From contig NZ_SMBU01000010.1 in the NCBI RefSeq assembly GCF_004342485.1, positions 1-64,000 of the forward strand: a stretch of 64,000 bases of DNA. Direction: 5' to 3'. Below the pieces are notes generated by a model. It saw nothing but the letters and a program-made list of their open reading frames with translations. It did no database searches and was not told where the DNA came from. Below are positions 1,324 through 27,909 of the stretch, piece by piece. Made by a program: the position numbers and the translations under genes. How positions within the stretch are numbered: the stretch's first letter is position 1; each line of letters opens with the position of its first letter. The DNA comes from Roseateles saccharophilus. GTDB taxonomy: Bacteria > Pseudomonadota > Gammaproteobacteria > Burkholderiales > Burkholderiaceae_C.

Positions 1324-1412
1324 TGGTGCCCGGGACGGGACTTGAACCCGTACGCCCCTTTCGAGGCGGCGGATTTTAAGTCCGCTGCGTTTACCGATTT
1401 CGCCACCCGGGC
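1324..1412 (-). tRNA. tRNA-Leu (anticodon TAA)
   Basis: The 89-nt gene has a 7-bp acceptor GCCCGGG/CCCGGGC, discriminator A and an encoded CCA (1324-1326). A long variable arm is typical of leucine tRNAs, and the anticodon loop reads CTTAAAA with anticodon TAA. Its 3' end faces the broken integrase, so it is the likely integration site of the island to its left. A 14-bp repeat, not a copy of the tRNA end, lies beside it. The other island boundary is outside the window. Confidence 0.95.
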
Positions 1413-7957: not shown

Positions 7958-8044
7958 TGGTGCGCGGGGCCGGACTCGAACCGGCACGCCCGTGAAGGCG
8001 TCAGGACCTAAACCTGGTGCGTCTACCAATTTCGCCACCCGCGC
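7958..8044 (-). tRNA. tRNA-Leu (anticodon TAG)
   Basis: The 87-nt gene has acceptor GCGCGGG/CCGCGC, discriminator A, encoded CCA (7958-7960), a long variable arm, and anticodon loop TTTAGGT with anticodon TAG. It is 28 bp upstream of tig on the same strand, so its promoter may also feed tig. Confidence 0.95.
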
Positions 8045-18585: not shown

Positions 18586-18885
18586 GTGAACTCTTGCCCT
18601 GCTTCAACACGCTGGGCGCCCCGGGGTCTGCCACCGACTCTTTCGCTTTGCAGCAGGCTTCAAACGCCGGCAAGTAGGCCTGAGCTGACAGGACCCTGCC
18701 ATCGGGTCGGCCCCGAATGCCAAGGATTCCCGCGCCGCGGAGTCCGCACGCTGCCTGCGATTCACCGCTGGGTGCAATTCTGAGGGCGCAGGCTCCCATC
18801 CGAGGCCGGAGCAGCCGGCGTTTTCCGCGCCAGATTCCACGGCGCAGGCCGGCCGATGCGGCACCGCCGCATCGGCCGGTCGCCG
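18586..18885. other. Intergenic stretch with a leuA-proximal hairpin
   Basis: No convincing gene lies between the pbpG promoter and the leuA end. CCGGCCGATGCGGC (18849-18862) and GCCGCATCGGCCGG (18866-18879) form a perfect 14-bp hairpin with a 3-nt loop, 7 bp after the leuA stop. No T run follows on either side, so it may protect the mRNA 3' end or act with Rho. I see nothing else in the remaining 260 bp. Confidence 0.5.
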
Positions 18886-20427
18886 TCAGCCCTGGGCCGC
18901 CACCCGCTCGGTCTTGCTCTGCAGCTTGTTCAAGGCGCTGAGATAGGCCTTGGCCGACGCGACGATGATGTCCGGATCGGCGCCCACGCCGTTGACGATG
19001 CGGCCGGCATGCTGCAGCCGCACGGTCACCTCGCCCTGCGACTCCGTGCTGCCGCCGGTGATCGCGTTGACCGAGTACAGCACCATCTCGGCGCCGGACT
19101 GCACGACGGATTCAATGGCCTGCAGCGTCGCATCCACCGGGCCGTTGCCGTCGCTCTCGGCGCGATGCTCCTGGTGGCCCACTGCGAAGACGATGGCCGC
19201 ATGCGGGCGCTCGCCGGTCTCGCTGCGCTGGGCCAGCGACAGTAGGCGGTAGTGCTCGGCGTCGTTGACGACCGATTCGTCCATGACGAGGGCGACGATG
19301 TCCTCGTCGAAGATCTCGTTCTTGCGGTCGGCCAGGTCCTTGAAGCGCACGAAGGCGGCGTTGATCTCGGCCTCGCTTTCCAGCTCGATGCCCAGTTCCT
19401 GCAGGCGCTGCTTGAAGGCATTGCGACCCGAGAGCTTGCCCAGCACGATCTTGTTGGCGGCCCAGCCCACATCCTCGGCGCGCATGATCTCGTAGGTGTC
19501 GCGCGCCTTCAGCACGCCGTCCTGGTGGATGCCGGACGCGTGCGCGAAGGCATTCGCGCCGACGACGGCCTTGTTGGGCTGCACGACGAAGCCGGTCGTC
19601 TGCGACACCAGCTTGGAGGCCGGCACGATCTGCGAGGTGTCGATGCCGACATCCAGGCCGAAATAGTCGCGCCGCGTCCTGACGGCCATGACCACCTCCT
19701 CGAGCGAGCAGTTGCCGGCGCGTTCGCCCAGGCCGTTGATCGTGCACTCGATCTGGCGCGCGCCGCCGATCTTCACGCCGGCCAGGGAGTTGGCGACAGC
19801 CATGCCCAGGTCGTTGTGGCAGTGCACGCTCCAGATGGCCTGGTCGGAGTTGGGCACCTTCTCGCGCAAACGGCGGATGAAGTCGCCGTAGAGCTCGGGA
19901 ATGGCATAGCCGACCGTGTCGGGGATGTTGATGGTGCTGGCACCCTCCCTGATGACGGCCTCGCAGACGCGGGCCAGGAAGTCGATGTCGGAGCGATAAC
20001 CGTCCTCGGGCGAGAACTCGATGTCGCCGCAGAGGTTGCGCGCGAAGCGCACGGCCAGCGTCGCCTGCTCCAGCACCTGCTCGCGCGTCATGCGCAGCTT
20101 CTTCTCCATGTGGAGTTCACTGGTCGCGATGAAGGTGTGGATGCGCGCGCGGCTGGCGCCGGCCAGAGCCTCGGCGGCGCGGGAGATGTCGCGGTCGTTG
20201 GCACGGGCCAGCGAGCAGACCGTGCTGTCCTTCACCGCCGCGGCGATCGCCTTCACCGCCTCGAAGTCGCCGTTGCTGGAAGCCGCGAAGCCGGCCTCGA
20301 TGACGTCCACGCGCATGCGCTCCAGCTGGCGTGCGATGCGCAGTTTTTCCTCGCGCGTCATCGACGCCCCGGGCGACTGCTCGCCGTCGCGCAGCGTCGT
20401 GTCGAAGATGATGAGTCGGTCGGTCAT
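18886..20427 (-). CDS. leuA: 2-isopropylmalate synthase, short (type 1) form
   Basis: LeuA condenses acetyl-CoA with 2-oxoisovalerate, the first committed step of leucine synthesis. The 513-aa protein starts [20 protein letters not shown], the TIM-barrel catalytic signature; metal ligands are in SVHCHNDLG (near 205) and [14 protein letters not shown] (near 240). The C-terminal LeuA dimer domain (about 390-505) binds leucine for feedback control. The ATG overlaps the stop of the upstream leuA in ATGA, with AGGAG before it, so the two synthases are translationally coupled. Confidence 0.95.
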
Positions 20428-22112
20428 GTCGTTTGCTCCTGGGATGTCGGCATCGCGAAGGCGGGCGTGCGGCTCAGGCCCGACAGGATGGCCTGCATGG
20501 ACGCGCGCACGATGCTGCCATCGATGCCCACGCCGTAACGCGTCTCGTCGCCGACGCGCAGTTCAAGATAGGCCACCGCGCGCGCATCGGCGCCGCTGCC
20601 GATGGCGTGCTCGTGGTAGTCCAGCACCCGCACGGGCAGGCCGGCGCGCGCGCCGAGCGCGTTGACGAAGGCGTCGATGGGGCCGTTGCCCTCGCCCTGC
20701 ACGCGGCCCATCCAGCCACCCAGCATGACCTCGGCCGAGATGCGCATCGCGCCGCCGCCGACCTCGTTCATCTGCGGCTGCAGCACCGCGGTGCCGGCAT
20801 CGCCGATCGCGTACTCGCGCTCGAAGATGGCGTAGATGTCGGCCGCGCTGAGCTCCTTGCCCATGTCGTCCATCACGCGCTGCACGACCTGGCTGAACTC
20901 GATCTGCAGGCGGCGCGGCAGCTCCAGGCCGTACTCGTTCTCGAGCAGGTAGGCGATGCCGCCCTTGCCGGACTGGCTGTTCACGCGGATGACCGCGTCA
21001 TAGCTGCGGCCCAGGTCCTTGGGGTCGATGGGGAGGTAGGGCATGTCCCAAATCTCCCCCTCCTGGCGGGCCGCGAAGGCCTTCTTGATCGCGTCCTGGT
21101 GCGAGCCGGAGAAGGACGTGTAGACCAGGTCGCCGACATAGGGGTGGCGCGGATGCACAGCGATCTGCGTGCAGTGCTCGACGCAGCGGCGCACCTCGTC
21201 GATGTCGGAGAAGTCGAGCTGCGGGTCCACGCCCTGGGTGTAGAGGTTGAGTGCGATGTTGACGAGGTCGACATTGCCGGTGCGCTCGCCGTTGCCGAAC
21301 AGGCAGCCCTCGACGCGGTCGGCGCCGGCCATCAGCGCGAACTCGCCGGCAGCCGTGCCGGTGCCGCGGTCGTTGTGCGGGTGCACGGACAGCACGATGC
21401 TGTCGCGGCGCTCGAGATGGCGGTGCATCCACTCGATCATGTCGGCAAAGATGTTGGGCGTGCTGTGCTCGACGGTGGACGGCAGGTTGATGATGCACTT
21501 GCGCTCGGGCGTGGGCTCCCACACGGCCGTCACCGCGTCGACGACGCGCTTGCTGAAGGCCAGCTCGGTGCCGGAGAACATCTCGGGCGAGTACTCGAAG
21601 CGCCAGTCCGTGCCCGGGCGTGCGGCGGCCAGTGCCTTGATCTGGCGGGCGTGCGAGCTGGCCAGCTCGACGATGCCGTCCTCGTCCTGGCCCAGCACGA
21701 CGCGGCGCATGATGGGCGCGACGGCGTTGTAGACATGCACGATGACGCGCCGGGCGCCGTCCAGCGACTCGAACGTGCGCTCGATCAGATGGGCGCGCGC
21801 CTGCGTCAGCACCTGGATGCTGACGTCGTCGGGGATGTGACCGCCCTCGATCAGCAGGCGCACGAAGTCGAACTCGGTCTGCGACGCGGACGGGAAGCCG
21901 ACCTCGATCTCCTTGAAGCCGATCTTCACCAACTGCTGGAACATGCGCAGCTTGCGCTCGATGTCCATCGGCTCGATCAGCGCCTGGTTGCCATCGCGCA
22001 GGTCGGTGCTCAGCCAGATCGGTGCGCAGGTCAGCACGGCGTCGGGCCAGCGACGGTCGGGCAAGGCGACGGGAGCGAAGGGGCGGTACTTTTGCTGCGG
22101 TTGCTTCAACAT
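20424..22112 (-). CDS. leuA: 2-isopropylmalate synthase, long (type 2) form
   Basis: A second, only distantly related synthase of the same reaction. The start [24 protein letters not shown] at 22112 is typical for type 2 enzymes and has GGAAACC before it; an ATG nine bases upstream is possible. The 562-aa protein has the barrel signature [17 protein letters not shown], metal ligands in [11 protein letters not shown] (near 240) and [13 protein letters not shown] (near 275), and the C-terminal regulatory domain (about 440-550). It is the first gene after the proposed leucine leader and attenuator. Confidence 0.93.
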
Positions 22113-22156
22113 GGTTTCCATCCGGGATGGGTGGGTGGCACAACCGACAGCCTTTG

Positions 22157-22195
22157 AAAACACGAACGGCCCGCTGCGGTTGCAAACGGGCCGTT
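22157..22195 (-). terminator. Attenuator hairpin of the leuA pair
   Basis: On the minus strand AACGGCCCG (22187-22195) pairs perfectly with CGGGCCGTT (22165-22173) across a 13-nt loop, followed by CGTGTTTTC with TTTT at 22157-22160. It sits between the leader peptide and the leuA start, 44 bp from the ATG, where only a conditional terminator makes sense. The T run is short, so termination may be partial. Confidence 0.6.
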
Positions 22196-22226
22196 GGGGT
22201 CAGGATGAGCGTATAGGCGTGACTGA

Positions 22227-22286
22227 CTAGCGAACCCGTGGTTCCTCTAGGGCTAGTAGCAGGCTAATTCGCGTGGCGCGGCTCAT
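22227..22286 (-). CDS. Leucine-rich leader peptide of the leuA operon
   Basis: A 19-codon reading frame, MSRATRISLLLALEEPRVR and a TAG stop. Its four leucine codons within five are CTG CTA CTA GCC CTA; CTA is rare in this genome, where CTG dominates. The frame lies between a sigma-70-like promoter and a terminator-like hairpin before leuA, as in known amino-acid attenuators. ACTAGC (inside the Leu codons) can pair with GCTAGT at the stop, and GAACC with GGTTC, forming a pause structure that a ribosome stalled on the CTA codons would open. No ribosome-binding site is seen; the predicted transcript starts at or within a few bases of the ATG. Translation is not proven. Confidence 0.6.
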   Translation of the reverse strand: MSRATRISLLLALEEPRVR

Positions 22287-22294
22287 GGGTCGGG

Positions 22295-22322
22295 AATCTA
22301 GCACGAAAGCCTATTGATGCAA
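22295..22322 (-). promoter_or_regulatory. Sigma-70-like promoter of the leucine leader
   Basis: On the minus strand TTGCAT (22317-22322), a 16-bp spacer and TAGATT (22295-22300). The predicted transcription start is 22286-22289, practically on the leader ATG. The -35 box lies inside the 3' end of pssA. Confidence 0.5.
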
Positions 22323-23135
22323 GCCGCGTTCATCGGGCTCGTCGGTGCTCGTGGAGATGACGCTGACCGGCCTGCCCTTGGCCTTGCGCCAGCCGTAGAT
22401 CGCATAGCCCGAAAGGCCGTAAACGCAGAAGGCACCGAAGAGAACACGGGCCGGGTCGAGGGCCGCGAGGCCAATGCCAAGCATGATGATGACGAGCACG
22501 ATGAAGGGCACCGAGCGCCGCCGGTCGAAGACTTTGAAGCTGTAGAAGGGCGCATTCGTGACCATCGAAAGCCCGGCGAACAGCGTGATGCCGTAGGCGG
22601 CCCAGGCCTCCCAGCTGCCGGGCTTGACGCCCGCATAGTCCGGGCGGTCCACGGCGGCCCAGATCAGCCCGATGACCAGGGCCGCGGCGGCCGGGCTGGG
22701 CAGGCCCTGGAAGTAGCGCTTGTCGACGACGCCGATGTTGACGTTGAAGCGTGCCAGGCGCAGCGCGGCGCCGGCGATGTAGACGAAGGCCGGGATCCAG
22801 CCCGGCTTGCCCATGTCCTTCAGCGCCCACATGTAGACGATCAGCGCCGGCGCGGCGCCGAAGGCGACCATGTCGGAGAGGCTGTCCATCTGCTCGCCGA
22901 AGGCGGACTGGGTGTTGGTCATGCGCGCGACGCGACCGTCCAGGCTGTCGAGGATGGCGGCGGCAAAGATGGCCACGCAGGCCACCTCGAAGCGGCCGTT
23001 CATGGCCATGACGATGGCGTAGAAGGCGCTGAAGAGCGCGCCCAGCGTGATCGCGTTGGGCAGCGCGTAAATGCCTTTGCGGCGCGGACGGACGGCCGTG
23101 CTCGGCTCGTCGTCTTCGATGGGGTCGGGAGTCAT
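22311..23135 (-). CDS. pssA: CDP-diacylglycerol--serine O-phosphatidyltransferase
   Basis: An inner-membrane enzyme that makes phosphatidylserine from CDP-diacylglycerol and serine. The 274 aa contain the CDP-alcohol phosphotransferase signature as DGRVAR followed by G at 8-9 residues and two Asp (FGEQMDSLSDM), near 65-90, and about seven to eight hydrophobic segments. It keeps its usual neighbours (ilvIHC upstream, leuA downstream), but the psd gene often found between ilvC and pssA in betaproteobacteria is absent here; a NIPSNAP gene on the other strand takes that position. Confidence 0.93.
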   Translation of the reverse strand: MTPDPIEDDEPSTAVRPRRKGIYALPNAITLGALFSAFYAIVMAMNGRFEVACVAIFAAAILDSLDGRVARMTNTQSAFGEQMDSLSDMVAFGAAPALIVYMWALKDMGKPGWIPAFVYIAGAALRLARFNVNIGVVDKRYFQGLPSPAAAALVIGLIWAAVDRPDYAGVKPGSWEAWAAYGITLFAGLSMVTNAPFYSFKVFDRRRSVPFIVLVIIMLGIGLAALDPARVLFGAFCVYGLSGYAIYGWRKAKGRPVSVISTSTDEPDERGLHQ

Positions 23136-23207
23136 AGTCCGTCAGGATAGCTGACAGATCCCGGCAAATGGCGCTCCTAGCATCGCGGCCAACGACAGGA
23201 GACCGCC

Positions 23208-23543
23208 GTGAAGCTCATCGAAGTTCGCACCTACCGGCTCAAGCCGGACTGCGCGGAGCGCTTCGTCGCCGCCGTGCGCGAGGCCCTGCCGCTGGTGCGC
23301 GCCAGCGGCATGGATGTCGTCGCCTTTGGCCGCTCCGACCACGAGGAGGAGAGCTTCTTCCTGGTCCGTGCCTACGCCGACCGCGCGCAGCTCGTCGCCC
23401 AGCAGGACGCCTTCTACGGCTCGGCCATCTGGCGCGAAGGCCCGAGGCAGGCCCTGGTCGACTGCCTGGACAGCTATCTGAACACGCTGCTGTGGCTGCC
23501 CGACGAGGCCGTCGAAGCGCTGCGCGCCAACCACCAGCCCTGA
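23208..23543 (+). CDS. NIPSNAP-family protein
   Basis: A 111-aa protein beginning MKLIEVRTYRLKPDCAERFV, the ferredoxin-like alpha/beta-barrel start of NIPSNAP proteins, with the conserved W near residue 75. The GTG start at 23208 has AGGAG 7 nt upstream. No membrane segment or signal. Family functions in bacteria are poorly defined. It is the only plus-strand gene in an 8-kb block of minus-strand genes and has its own terminator, so it looks inserted into the ilv-pssA run. Confidence 0.8.
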   Translation: MKLIEVRTYRLKPDCAERFVAAVREALPLVRASGMDVVAFGRSDHEEESFFLVRAYADRAQLVAQQDAFYGSAIWREGPRQALVDCLDSYLNTLLWLPDEAVEALRANHQP

Positions 23544-25314: not shown

Positions 25315-27102
25315 TCACAGGTCTTCCGAGCCCAGCAGCATCTCCGAAATGCCCTTGCCCGCCTTGACCATGGGCCAGACGTTCTCGGTCGGATCGGTGC
25401 GGATGTCGAGGAAGACCGTGCGGTCCTTCAGGCGCATCGCTTCCTTCAGCGCGCCTTCGACGTCGCTCGGCTTCTCGACCAGGATGCCGACGTGGCCATA
25501 GGCCTCGGCCAGCTTCACGAAGTCGGGCAGCGCGTCCATGTAGCTGTGCGAGTAGCGGCCCTCGTAGTCGAGCTGCTGCCACTGGCGCACCATGCCCAGG
25601 TAGCGGTTGTTCAGCGAGACGATCTTGACCGGCGTCTTGTACTGGAAGCAGGTCGACAGCTCCTGGATGCACATCTGGATGCTGCCTTCGCCGGTGATGC
25701 AGAACACATCCGACTCGGGCCGGGCCAGCTTGATGCCCATCGCATAGGGCAGGCCGACGCCCATCGTGCCCAGGCCACCGGAGTTGATCCAGCGGCGCGG
25801 CTGGTCGAACTTGTAGAACTGCGCGGCCCACATCTGGTGCTGGCCGACGTCCGAGGTGATGTAGGTGTCGCGGTCGCGGGTCAGCTTCCACAGCGTGTCG
25901 ACGACGAACTGCGGCTTGATGACCTCGTCCGAACCCTTGTAGGCCAGGCAGTCGCGGCGGCGCCAGTCGTTGATCTGGCTCCACCAGGCGTTGACGGCGT
26001 TCGCGTCCGGCTTGGCCTGGGCCTCCTTGATCTGCGCGATCAGCTCCTGCAGCACGTCCTTGACGTCACCCACGATGGGGATGTCGACGCGCACGCGCTT
26101 GGAGATCGACGAAGGGTCGATGTCCACATGGATGATCTTGCGCTCGACCGAACCGAAGTGCTTGGGGTTGCCGATCACGCGGTCGTCGAAGCGCGCGCCC
26201 ACGGCCAGCAGCACGTCGCAGTGCTGCATGGTCATGTTGGCCTCGTAGGTGCCGTGCATGCCCAGCATGCCCAGGAAGCGCGGGTCGGTACCGGGCATGG
26301 CGCCCAGGCCCATCAGCGTGTTCGTGCAGGGGAAGCCCAGCAGGTCGACCAACTGGCGCAACTCGGCCGTGGCTTCGCCGAGGATGACGCCGCCACCGGT
26401 GTAGATATAAGGTCGCTTGGCCTGCAGCAGCAGCTGCACGGCCTTGCGGATCTGGCCGCTGTGGCCCTTCTTGACCGGGTTGTAGGACCGCATCTCGACG
26501 CGGTCCGGGTAGTGGAAGCTGGTCTTGGCCAGCGACACATCCTTGGGGATGTCCACCACCACCGGGCCAGGACGGCCGGTGCGCGCGATGTGGAAGGCCT
26601 TCTTCAGCGTCAGCGCCAGGTCGCGCACGTCCTTCACGAGGAAGTTGTGCTTGACGATGGGGCGCGTGATGCCGACGGTGTCGCACTCCTGGAAGGCATC
26701 CAGGCCGATCGCCGGCGTGGGGACCTGGCCCGTGATGATGACCATCGGGATCGAGTCCATATAGGCCGTGGCGATGCCGGTGACGGCATTCGTCACGCCC
26801 GGACCCGAGGTCACCAGGGCCACGCCCACCTCGCCGGTCGCACGGGCGAAGCCGTCGGCGGCATGGACGGCGGCCTGCTCGTGGCGCACCAGCACATGCT
26901 GGATGCTGTCCTGCTTGTAGAGGGCGTCGTAGATGTAGAGCACCGCGCCACCGGGGTAACCCCAGAGATGGCGCACCCCTTCGGCCTGCAGGCAGCGAAC
27001 GAGGATCTCGGAGCCGTTGAGCTCCGCGGTGGAGGAATTGGGGGAGGAGGAAGTCGGCTGCGCCAGGGCGGCGCGCTTCAGTTCCGCGGCAGACATATCC
27101 AT
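25315..27102 (-). CDS. ilvI: Acetolactate synthase, large (catalytic) subunit
   Basis: A thiamine-diphosphate enzyme that condenses two pyruvates, or pyruvate with 2-oxobutyrate. Start ATG at 27102 (MDMSAAELK) with AGAGG 9 nt upstream; the first 25 residues are a Ser/Pro-rich extension. Length 595 aa. The catalytic Glu lies in RHEQAAVHAADGFARATG (near 75). The FAD region and the ThDP motif GEGSIQMCIQELSTCFQYKTPVKIVSLNN (near 470) are intact. It opens the ilvI-ilvH-ilvC unit. Confidence 0.96.
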   Translation of the reverse strand: MDMSAAELKRAALAQPTSSSPNSSTAELNGSEILVRCLQAEGVRHLWGYPGGAVLYIYDALYKQDSIQHVLVRHEQAAVHAADGFARATGEVGVALVTSGPGVTNAVTGIATAYMDSIPMVIITGQVPTPAIGLDAFQECDTVGITRPIVKHNFLVKDVRDLALTLKKAFHIARTGRPGPVVVDIPKDVSLAKTSFHYPDRVEMRSYNPVKKGHSGQIRKAVQLLLQAKRPYIYTGGGVILGEATAELRQLVDLLGFPCTNTLMGLGAMPGTDPRFLGMLGMHGTYEANMTMQHCDVLLAVGARFDDRVIGNPKHFGSVERKIIHVDIDPSSISKRVRVDIPIVGDVKDVLQELIAQIKEAQAKPDANAVNAWWSQINDWRRRDCLAYKGSDEVIKPQFVVDTLWKLTRDRDTYITSDVGQHQMWAAQFYKFDQPRRWINSGGLGTMGVGLPYAMGIKLARPESDVFCITGEGSIQMCIQELSTCFQYKTPVKIVSLNNRYLGMVRQWQQLDYEGRYSHSYMDALPDFVKLAEAYGHVGILVEKPSDVEGALKEAMRLKDRTVFLDIRTDPTENVWPMVKAGKGISEMLLGSEDL

Positions 27103-27342
27103 TTTTAGAACCTCTGTGATTTTCTCTAACGAAAAACCATTGGTGCCCCTCCTCTCGTCCTCGTGAGACGGACTCGGAACCTGCGCGTCAACAGATGGGG
27201 CCCCAGTCGGGCGACCACTGAGAGACCATGACTCTTTGTGCGAAGCAACATTATGCCGAGCAAAAACGTTTGAGCCTTCGTATGAAACGAATGCAGTAGC
27301 CAATGCGATAATTCGCTTTGCTGCCCGGATAGCCTCCAAGCC

Positions 27343-27909
27343 TTGGCCACCGACAAAGAACTCAACGATTTCCTGCGTAACGTGGATCGCCGCGCCTTCA
27401 AGCGCACGGCCTACCTCGTCCGCGACGACGATGCCGCCCTCGACATCGTGCAGGACGCCATGATCAAGCTGGCCGAGAACTATTTCGACCGCCCCGCGGC
27501 CGAACTGCCTCTGCTGTTCCAGCGCATCCTGTCGAACGCGACGATGGACTACTTCCGTCGCCAGAAGGTGCGCAACGCGGTCATGACGAATATGTCCGAC
27601 TTCGAGGGCGGCGATGCCGACGGCGACTTCGACCTGCTGGAGATCCTGGAAACCCGGGATGGCGCCATGGGCGCCCAGAGCGCGGCGGACGAGGTCAGCC
27701 GGGCGCAGATCTTGCAATCCATCGAGGCGGAAGTGGAACAGCTGCCGGCGCGTCAACGCGAAGCCTTCCTGCTGCGTTACTGGGAGGAACTGGATGTTGC
27801 AGAGACCGCCTCTGTGATGGGTTGCTCGGAAGGCAGTGTCAAGACGCACTGCTCACGCGCGGTCCACGCGCTGGCCAAGTCCCTCAAGGCCAAGGGGATC
27901 ACGCTATGA
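27343..27909 (+). CDS. ECF sigma-70 factor
   Basis: A 188-aa alternative sigma factor. Region 2 is at about 12-80 (AYLVRDDDAALDIVQDAMIKLAEN, MDYFRRQKVRN) and region 4 at about 130-180 (LPARQREAFLLRYWEELDVAETASVMGCSEGSVKTHCSRA). Start TTG at 27343 gives MATDKELNDFL. It heads an operon whose genes overlap by ATGA: DUF3619, DUF3106, RDD and dgkA. The next gene product, with one membrane helix, is the likely anti-sigma factor. Confidence 0.92.
   Translation: MATDKELNDFLRNVDRRAFKRTAYLVRDDDAALDIVQDAMIKLAENYFDRPAAELPLLFQRILSNATMDYFRRQKVRNAVMTNMSDFEGGDADGDFDLLEILETRDGAMGAQSAADEVSRAQILQSIEAEVEQLPARQREAFLLRYWEELDVAETASVMGCSEGSVKTHCSRAVHALAKSLKAKGITL

Follow-up and report, generated by a model that had tools for sequence, protein, structure and literature searches.

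The enterobacterial leu leader carries rare CUA codons, and Rfam describes it as Leu_leader (RF00512). The leader peptide of Escherichia coli leuL has 28 residues, four of them leucine, according to the relevant passages of PMC6123439, which also cite Vitreschak et al. 2004 for putative branched-chain leaders in various Gram-negative species. Two more distant systems involve leaderless leader peptides. In Streptomyces lividans, as treated in the leader-peptide passages of PMC8079986, leuL1 is a leaderless leucine-rich frame upstream of leuA, the leuA leader has no typical Rho-independent terminator, and other leader peptides are leaderless too; in Sinorhizobium meliloti, the leader peptide trpL of a proteobacterial attenuator is leaderless, and the released leader RNA rnTrpL acts in trans (in the parts of PMC7298713 and PMC10117765 devoted to it). 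Leaderless mRNAs as such are a known minority in betaproteobacteria: the main text of PMC4603805 reports that in Burkholderia cenocepacia the transcription start coincides with the start codon in 72 genes and lies within 10 nt of it in another 42, 24 of them tRNAs, and that of PMC7563307 assigns 4.67% of primary starts in Cupriavidus metallidurans to leaderless transcripts. Neither main text mentions leuA or leader peptides, and among the matches listed in the open-licence literature, judged by title and opening of the abstract, we found no description of a betaproteobacterial leuA attenuator, though Vitreschak et al. 2004 may list some.

Here we analysed a 64,000-nucleotide stretch of DNA (the window), in which a first-pass annotation had proposed leucine attenuation upstream of two leuA genes. 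Comparison with relatives upheld this reading in its leucine frame, rare CTA codons, competing stems and terminator; the annotation missed a −10 box that abuts the leader ATG and a conserved pairing beyond the terminator. We conclude that the locus is very probably a ribosome-mediated transcription attenuator, responsive to charged tRNA-Leu, which governs the leuA tandem from a leader predicted to be leaderless or almost so.

Like leuL as outlined in PMC6123439, this element would place a leucine-codon leader and attenuation ahead of leuA. Unlike leuL, it has a different peptide and sequence with no match to Leu_leader, its leader lacks a Shine-Dalgarno-like word and has a −10 box against the ATG, it would control a tandem of type-2 and type-1 leuA, and it has the extra post-terminator pairing. 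It resembles S. lividans leuL1 in having a leucine-rich frame, predicted to be leaderless here, upstream of leuA; however, that organism belongs to a different phylum, and here the intrinsic terminator is conserved and the antiterminator covaries, where the described S. lividans leader has no typical terminator (PMC8079986, in the passages concerned). With S. meliloti trpL it would share a leaderless leader peptide in a proteobacterial attenuator, but that system responds to tryptophan in an alphaproteobacterium, and the trans action described for rnTrpL is only a candidate in the window (PMC7298713 and PMC10117765, same parts). Leaderless attenuators are thus documented in Actinobacteria and for alphaproteobacterial trp, and our comparison suggests that they are widespread for leucine in betaproteobacteria. 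An Rfam scan of the window returned only tRNAs at the gathering score, leaving Leu_leader unmatched, and a scan around leuA at 11 loci (E <= 1) gave two matches, to other families, below cut-offs and away from the leader.

A leucine leader ahead of tandem leuA genes

The genes and the leader frame lie in the window as follows.

22311-23135, minus strand: pssA (CDP-diacylglycerol-serine O-phosphatidyltransferase; TIGR00473, 112 bits, cutoff 107), the gene upstream of the leader
22227-22286, minus strand: leader peptide frame MSRATRISLLLALEEPRVR, 19 codons, ATG at 22286, TAG at 22229-22227
22248-22262, minus strand: leucine control codons CTG CTA CTA GCC CTA
20424-22112, minus strand: leuA, type-2 2-isopropylmalate synthase, 562 aa (TIGR00970, 761 bits, cutoff 697)
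18886-20427, minus strand: leuA, type-1 2-isopropylmalate synthase, 513 aa (TIGR00973 and NF002087, above cutoff)

The order on the minus strand is acetolactate synthase (assigned by eye from its translation), ilvC, pssA, the leader and the two leuA genes, of which the type-1 gene overlaps the type-2 gene by 4 bases. The comparison drew on 80 named loci, those with the best LeuA matches among 302; a single one (L020) came without upstream DNA, so that 79 relatives and the window make 80 sequences, of which 51 form a nonredundant set (similarity <93%). Among these best 80 of 302 loci, and with the window's own record possibly left aside, Pelomonas aquatica, a member of the Roseateles group of betaproteobacteria, has the closest LeuA of any named relative (97% identity), and the window genome is Roseateles/Pelomonas-like. 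A pssA-like match was found in 79/80 named loci and a type-1-like LeuA downstream of the type-2 leuA in 78/80; judging from these matches, the tandem extends beyond the window's strain.

The 19-codon frame had been annotated with exact sequence and coordinates, and all 79 relatives with upstream DNA have an equivalent, with at least three leucines in five residues and an ATG 133–203 nt 5' of leuA. Counting the window, the 80 peptides are 17–25 residues long and contain 3–6 leucines each. Alignment of the relatives upstream of leuA showed the leucine codons to be conserved, with at least one CTA in 80/80 leaders, and the claim that these CTA codons are rare held by a wide count: CTA makes up 180 of 342 leader leucine codons as against 3 of 3631 in leuA (first 1600 nt of the gene from the 80 relatives). 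We considered whether CTA might be enriched as a by-product of pairing with a TAG stop codon. This is disfavoured, because leaders ending in TGA use CTA about equally (39/76, compared with 141/266 in TAG leaders), and CTA is therefore not merely the partner of the stop codon. The presence of the frame in 79/79 relatives and of the terminator in 80/80 sequences likewise makes the element more than chance, and a chance reading frame is ruled out by this conservation.

The 80 peptides have two main tails, ...EPRVR and ...PHGRRR, and in both the codons of the tail hold the 5' arm of the antiterminator described below (CACGGGTTCGC and CACGGGCGG). The last leucine codon begins 10–11 nt 5' of ACGGG in 67/80 leaders, and the first CTA mostly lies 16–20 nt 5' of it; such spacing would let a ribosome stalled at the earlier CTA codons leave this arm free.

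Two tRNA-Leu genes lie in the window, one with anticodon TAG (7958-8044, minus strand), which would read the leader CTA codons, and one with anticodon TAA (1324-1412, minus strand). A second attenuation leader, ahead of the acetolactate synthase gene, was sought and rejected: the short frames in its upstream stretch (27060-27360, minus strand) hold no branched-chain run.

Promoter position and a predicted leaderless start

Immediately upstream of the leader ATG we identified the following elements.

22317-22322, minus strand: −35-like TTGCAT, 16 nt before the −10, with the pssA stop codon following 3 nt downstream
22295-22303, minus strand: extended −10 element TGC-TAGATT, identified by its conserved position and by its promoter score against shuffles
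22286-22288, minus strand: predicted transcription start, at the A of the leader ATG or 1–2 nt before it, placed from the position of the −10

A TANANT box ends 6–10 nt 5' of the leader ATG in 79/80 sequences (L075 is the one without it; in the 8/80 leaders where several ATGs share one stop, the ATG behind a TAnnnT box was preferred in this count), and 74 of the 79 boxes are preceded by TG at the extended −10 position, which was outside the search pattern. A combined −10/−35/TG score of at least 9 abutting the ATG was reached by 30/51 sequences, as compared to a mean of 0.2 and a maximum of 3 in 300 shuffles. No Shine-Dalgarno-like word precedes the leader ATG in any of the 51 sequences, a weak test in that leuA starts show one in only 18/51. 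Furthermore, the base before the leader ATG is C or T in 79/80, as expected if the A were the first transcribed base. Since the −10 box abuts the ATG and no Shine-Dalgarno-like word is found, we expect a leader mRNA that is leaderless or close to it, with a predicted 5' UTR of about 0–4 nt. A start of this kind makes ribosome loading depend on the very 5' end of the RNA, bypasses Shine-Dalgarno initiation, and is relevant to how leader translation keeps pace with transcription; because start-site maps have been published for Burkholderia cenocepacia and Cupriavidus metallidurans, the prediction is quickly testable.

To place this layout within the order, we turned to the type-2 LeuA matches found in 107/300 order genomes and read 400–440 nt upstream of 89 of them, in sets of 69 and 20. 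A fixed criterion (an ATG frame of 10–45 codons with at least three leucines in five residues and a promoter score of at least 8 abutting the ATG) was passed by 27/69 loci, or 23/65 when the window's family is left out, as compared to 0.10 of 69 in shuffles, and by 5/20 in the second set (the shuffle null covers the 69). Qualifying loci occur in 13 of the 25 families sampled, which is 12 families besides the window's; 57/89 loci fail, among them all those of families f5 (0/6), f20 (0/5) and f34 (0/8). One of the misses in the 69, on a short contig (L136), was counted as such through a misread offset: its leader, MDTRIAFALLLPLFVPCGRR, has TAGATT 8 nt before the ATG. When the promoter test is dropped, a leucine-rich frame is present in 47/69 loci versus 8.9 in shuffles. 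Leaders picked by eye in other families score at least 9 in 15/36 cases versus 0.27 shuffled, with a Shine-Dalgarno-like word in 2/36, and their peptides are diverse (...GLLLRPART, ...LLLRA, ...LALLRP).

The main alternative for the start is that the attenuator is the same and the leader is not leaderless, transcription beginning further upstream (for example by read-through from pssA) and TGnTANANT being a conserved operator or chance. The −35-like element of the window is indeed weak, matching 3/6 positions of the consensus, a stricter promoter scan of 18600-23300 found no promoter, and the upstream genes are co-directional, so that some RNA may read in from pssA. We nevertheless regard this alternative as unlikely, given the near-constant position of the box, the missing Shine-Dalgarno-like word, and the recurrence of the same promoter-ATG arrangement with quite different leader peptides in both sets of loci.

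Four loci of family f4 (L170, L174, L181 and L183) have leucine frames that carry LPIGCRA or LPTGCRA close to the C terminus and are preceded about 7–9 nt before the ATG by TTGACT or TGGACT, not TANNNT, with TTGC about 17 nt further up; these leaders possibly use a different −10. In three loci of other families (L152, L172 and L147), the GC hairpins behind leaderless-type leucine frames show, by eye, no clear U-tract.

Competing structures in the leader RNA

Four regions of the leader RNA would take part in the switch.

22240-22257, minus strand: region 1, 5' side of the predicted pause hairpin (ACTAGC ... GAACC), which would pair with 22236-22226
22233-22239, minus strand: region 2, ACGGGTT, 5' arm of the antiterminator, identified by covariation
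22186-22192, minus strand: region 3, GGCCCGT, 3' arm of the antiterminator and partly 5' arm of the terminator, identified by covariation
22157-22195, minus strand: intrinsic terminator AACGGCCCG / CGGGCCGTT with U-rich tail (regions 3:4)

The GC-rich hairpin that had been annotated 44 nt ahead of leuA is confirmed: its arms (AACGGCCCG and CGGGCCGTT) span 22195-22165 and are followed by CGTGTTTT, a poor U-tract, down to 22157, which 44 nt separate from the leuA ATG (22112), and GGCCC...GGGCC is present in 80/80 sequences. Its core pairs are invariant in the 51 sequences and the stem hardly varies, which is what an arm shared between two partners should show. Folded as a single sequence, the leader is unremarkable (z = −1.74; 12/200 shuffles as good), and a simple scan of 18600-23300 gave four terminator-like sites, the leader hairpin among them, versus 1.7 expected; the case thus rests on comparison and not on folding energy.

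The best-supported pairing is the antiterminator. The first-pass annotation had rated ACGGG:CCCGT (22239-22235 with 22190-22186) a weak candidate; the pairing itself stands, and the reservation does not. In the 51 sequences ACGGGYY:GGCCCGT has an invariant GGG:CCC core, and its outer pair covaries, being A-U in 34, U-A in 5, G-C in 2 and unpaired in 10; 0/2000 shuffles pair this position as well as the observed 41/51, a count unchanged when L024 and L033, first scored at a CGGG earlier than region 2, were recounted at the last CGGG. In an alignment of 29 sequences (30 share one tail type, of which L033, whose CGGG is doubled, was set aside; the remaining 21, with the other tail, were aligned separately), 95.6% of antiterminator cells pair, which 0/500 shuffles equal and slid pairings reach to 21–48%. 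The numbers of doubly changed pairs (1) and pair types (3) in the same alignment are not above shuffles (424 and 410 of 500), because only one antiterminator pair varies on both sides, and all these shuffle tests are inflated by the relatedness of the sequences. The covariation nonetheless points to the antiterminator, since the A of the outer pair is a loop base in the pause hairpin and its partner sits at the edge of the terminator loop, where it could form U-G at best. The alternative pairs are scattered (U-A in Roseateles and Mitsuaria, both in Rhizobacter, G-C in Methylibium), and the switches probably arose in several events.

The pause hairpin is less certain. Its elements are as first noted, ACTAGC (22257-22252) with GCTAGT (22231-22226) and GAACC (22244-22240) with GGTTC (22236-22232), but when the ribosome-free leader is folded, region 2 takes an upstream partner in 31/51 sequences, region 3 in 19/51 and neither in one (L024 and L033 being read in these counts at a CGGG earlier than region 2), so that this hairpin is predicted in many relatives and not in all. 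When the folded segment begins at region 2 and stops after the terminator loop, region 4 being absent, the antiterminator is the minimum-energy structure in 51/51 (last CGGG). A further outer stem from the start codon to beyond the stop (ATGAGC:GCTCAT) was rejected, as only 4/51 sequences beat their own shuffles, although its own pairing beat 2000/2000 partner permutations.

Judged by sequence, the locus has most of what defines a trp/leu-type attenuator, the pause hairpin being the uncertain part. We propose that transcription from the extended −10 promoter would begin at the leader ATG or no more than about 4 nt from it, and that ribosomes would load, with no Shine-Dalgarno sequence to guide them, on an mRNA that is leaderless or almost so. 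If leucine is short, a ribosome would stall at the CTA codons and cover region 1; region 2 (ACGGGYY) would then be available to region 3 (GGCCCGT) while region 4 is still unmade, no terminator would form, and leuA would be transcribed. If leucine is ample, the ribosome would reach the stop codon and cover region 2, allowing the 3:4 terminator to form. With no translation, the pause hairpin (1:2) and then the terminator would form, which would also shield leuA from transcription running in from the upstream genes. Because the antiterminator is the weaker of the two structures, the choice between it and the terminator must be made kinetically.

Post-terminator pairing and the extent of the probable attenuator

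Beyond the U-tract, 26 nt ahead of leuA, the RNA contains a segment complementary to the terminator loop.

22139-22151, minus strand: post-terminator arm GCTG-T-CGGTTGTG, able to pair with terminator loop TGCAACCGCAGC at 22184-22173

In the window the loop:arm helix has eight unbroken pairs, two of them G-U, then a bulge and four more pairs. The longest unbroken run, G-U counted, is 8–13 pairs in 62/80 sequences and 5–7 in 18/80; the pairing beats all 20 shuffles of the sequence's own downstream DNA in 42/51 cases, and own partners beat 2000/2000 partner permutations. Loop and arm covary (GCAACTCGC with GCGAGTTGC, and TCAGCGAC with GTCGCTGA in L112). L054, L109 and L111 have a weak helix or none. 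Because the arm lies at a variable distance from GGGCC (10–28 nt), a dyad acting as a DNA operator is disfavoured.

A loop:arm hairpin replacing the terminator was also rejected: folded as an isolated segment, it is never the lowest-energy structure (0/51), and in nested folds of this segment the terminator wins in 51/51. In nested folds from region 2 onward (L033 read at its earlier CGGG) the terminator wins in 45/51 and an antitermination-type fold in 6/51; with region 4 barred, the antiterminator together with the loop:arm helix is the fold in 45/51, and the helix narrows the median energy gap in folds from region 2 from 10.4 to 7.6 kcal/mol. Since the helix spans the U-tract, it can form in cis only once polymerase has passed the termination site. 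These folds suggest that it is specific to read-through RNA, standing beside the antiterminator and acting on the leuA message rather than on the termination decision; a loop-arm pseudoknot, or pairing in trans by released leader RNA, may be alternative forms of it. A conserved post-terminator helix has no place in the textbook three-hairpin model. We suggest tentatively, as a scenario somewhat short of even likelihood, that leaderless leucine leaders are a common and old control of leuA in the order, and that the window's branch gained a third state in which this helix, formed within read-through RNA or in trans, decides what becomes of the leuA message.

By analogy with Sinorhizobium rnTrpL, the terminated leader might instead be a functional small RNA, perhaps with its peptide, whose terminator loop pairs in trans with the segment in the leuA 5' UTR. 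The conserved, covarying complementarity would suit such a role, and a variable spacer fits RNA pairing better than a DNA site; yet the same pairing can form in cis in read-through RNA, and the short runs and absent or weak helices noted above also count against it, making this reading quite improbable. That attenuation instead works through Rho or through translation of leuA, the leader ribosome exposing rut or Shine-Dalgarno sites, would suit the three other-family loci with hairpins lacking a clear U-tract, but it is highly improbable given the hairpin in every sequence of the window's clade and the covariation of the antiterminator with the 5' side of the terminator.

A covariance model built from the 51 sequences (R1) was searched in the 300 order genomes. 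It matched 12/300 at E < 1e-8, the window's own genome included, and all 12 matches lie upstream of a leuA; nine of them are among the ten same-family genomes and three come from one genus of another family. The remaining 27 of the 39 matched genomes (E 2.6e-5 to 0.01) were treated as noise, and among the 18 such loci fetched (L113–L130) none had a LeuA match. The one same-family genome missed by the model (G208) has a different leucine frame behind a promoter-like box.

The leuA behind the 12 matches is type-2 in eight and was judged type-1 in four (L101, L104, L105 and L106), whose products are 26–27% identical to type-2 and start M(A/S)DKLIIFDTT. In these four same-family genomes the attenuator stands directly before the type-1 leuA, with no type-2 LeuA match at E <= 1e-100; this arrangement suggests either insertion of the type-2 gene into a pre-existing attenuated unit or its loss from one. 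The loop:arm pairing is retained ahead of the type-1 gene.
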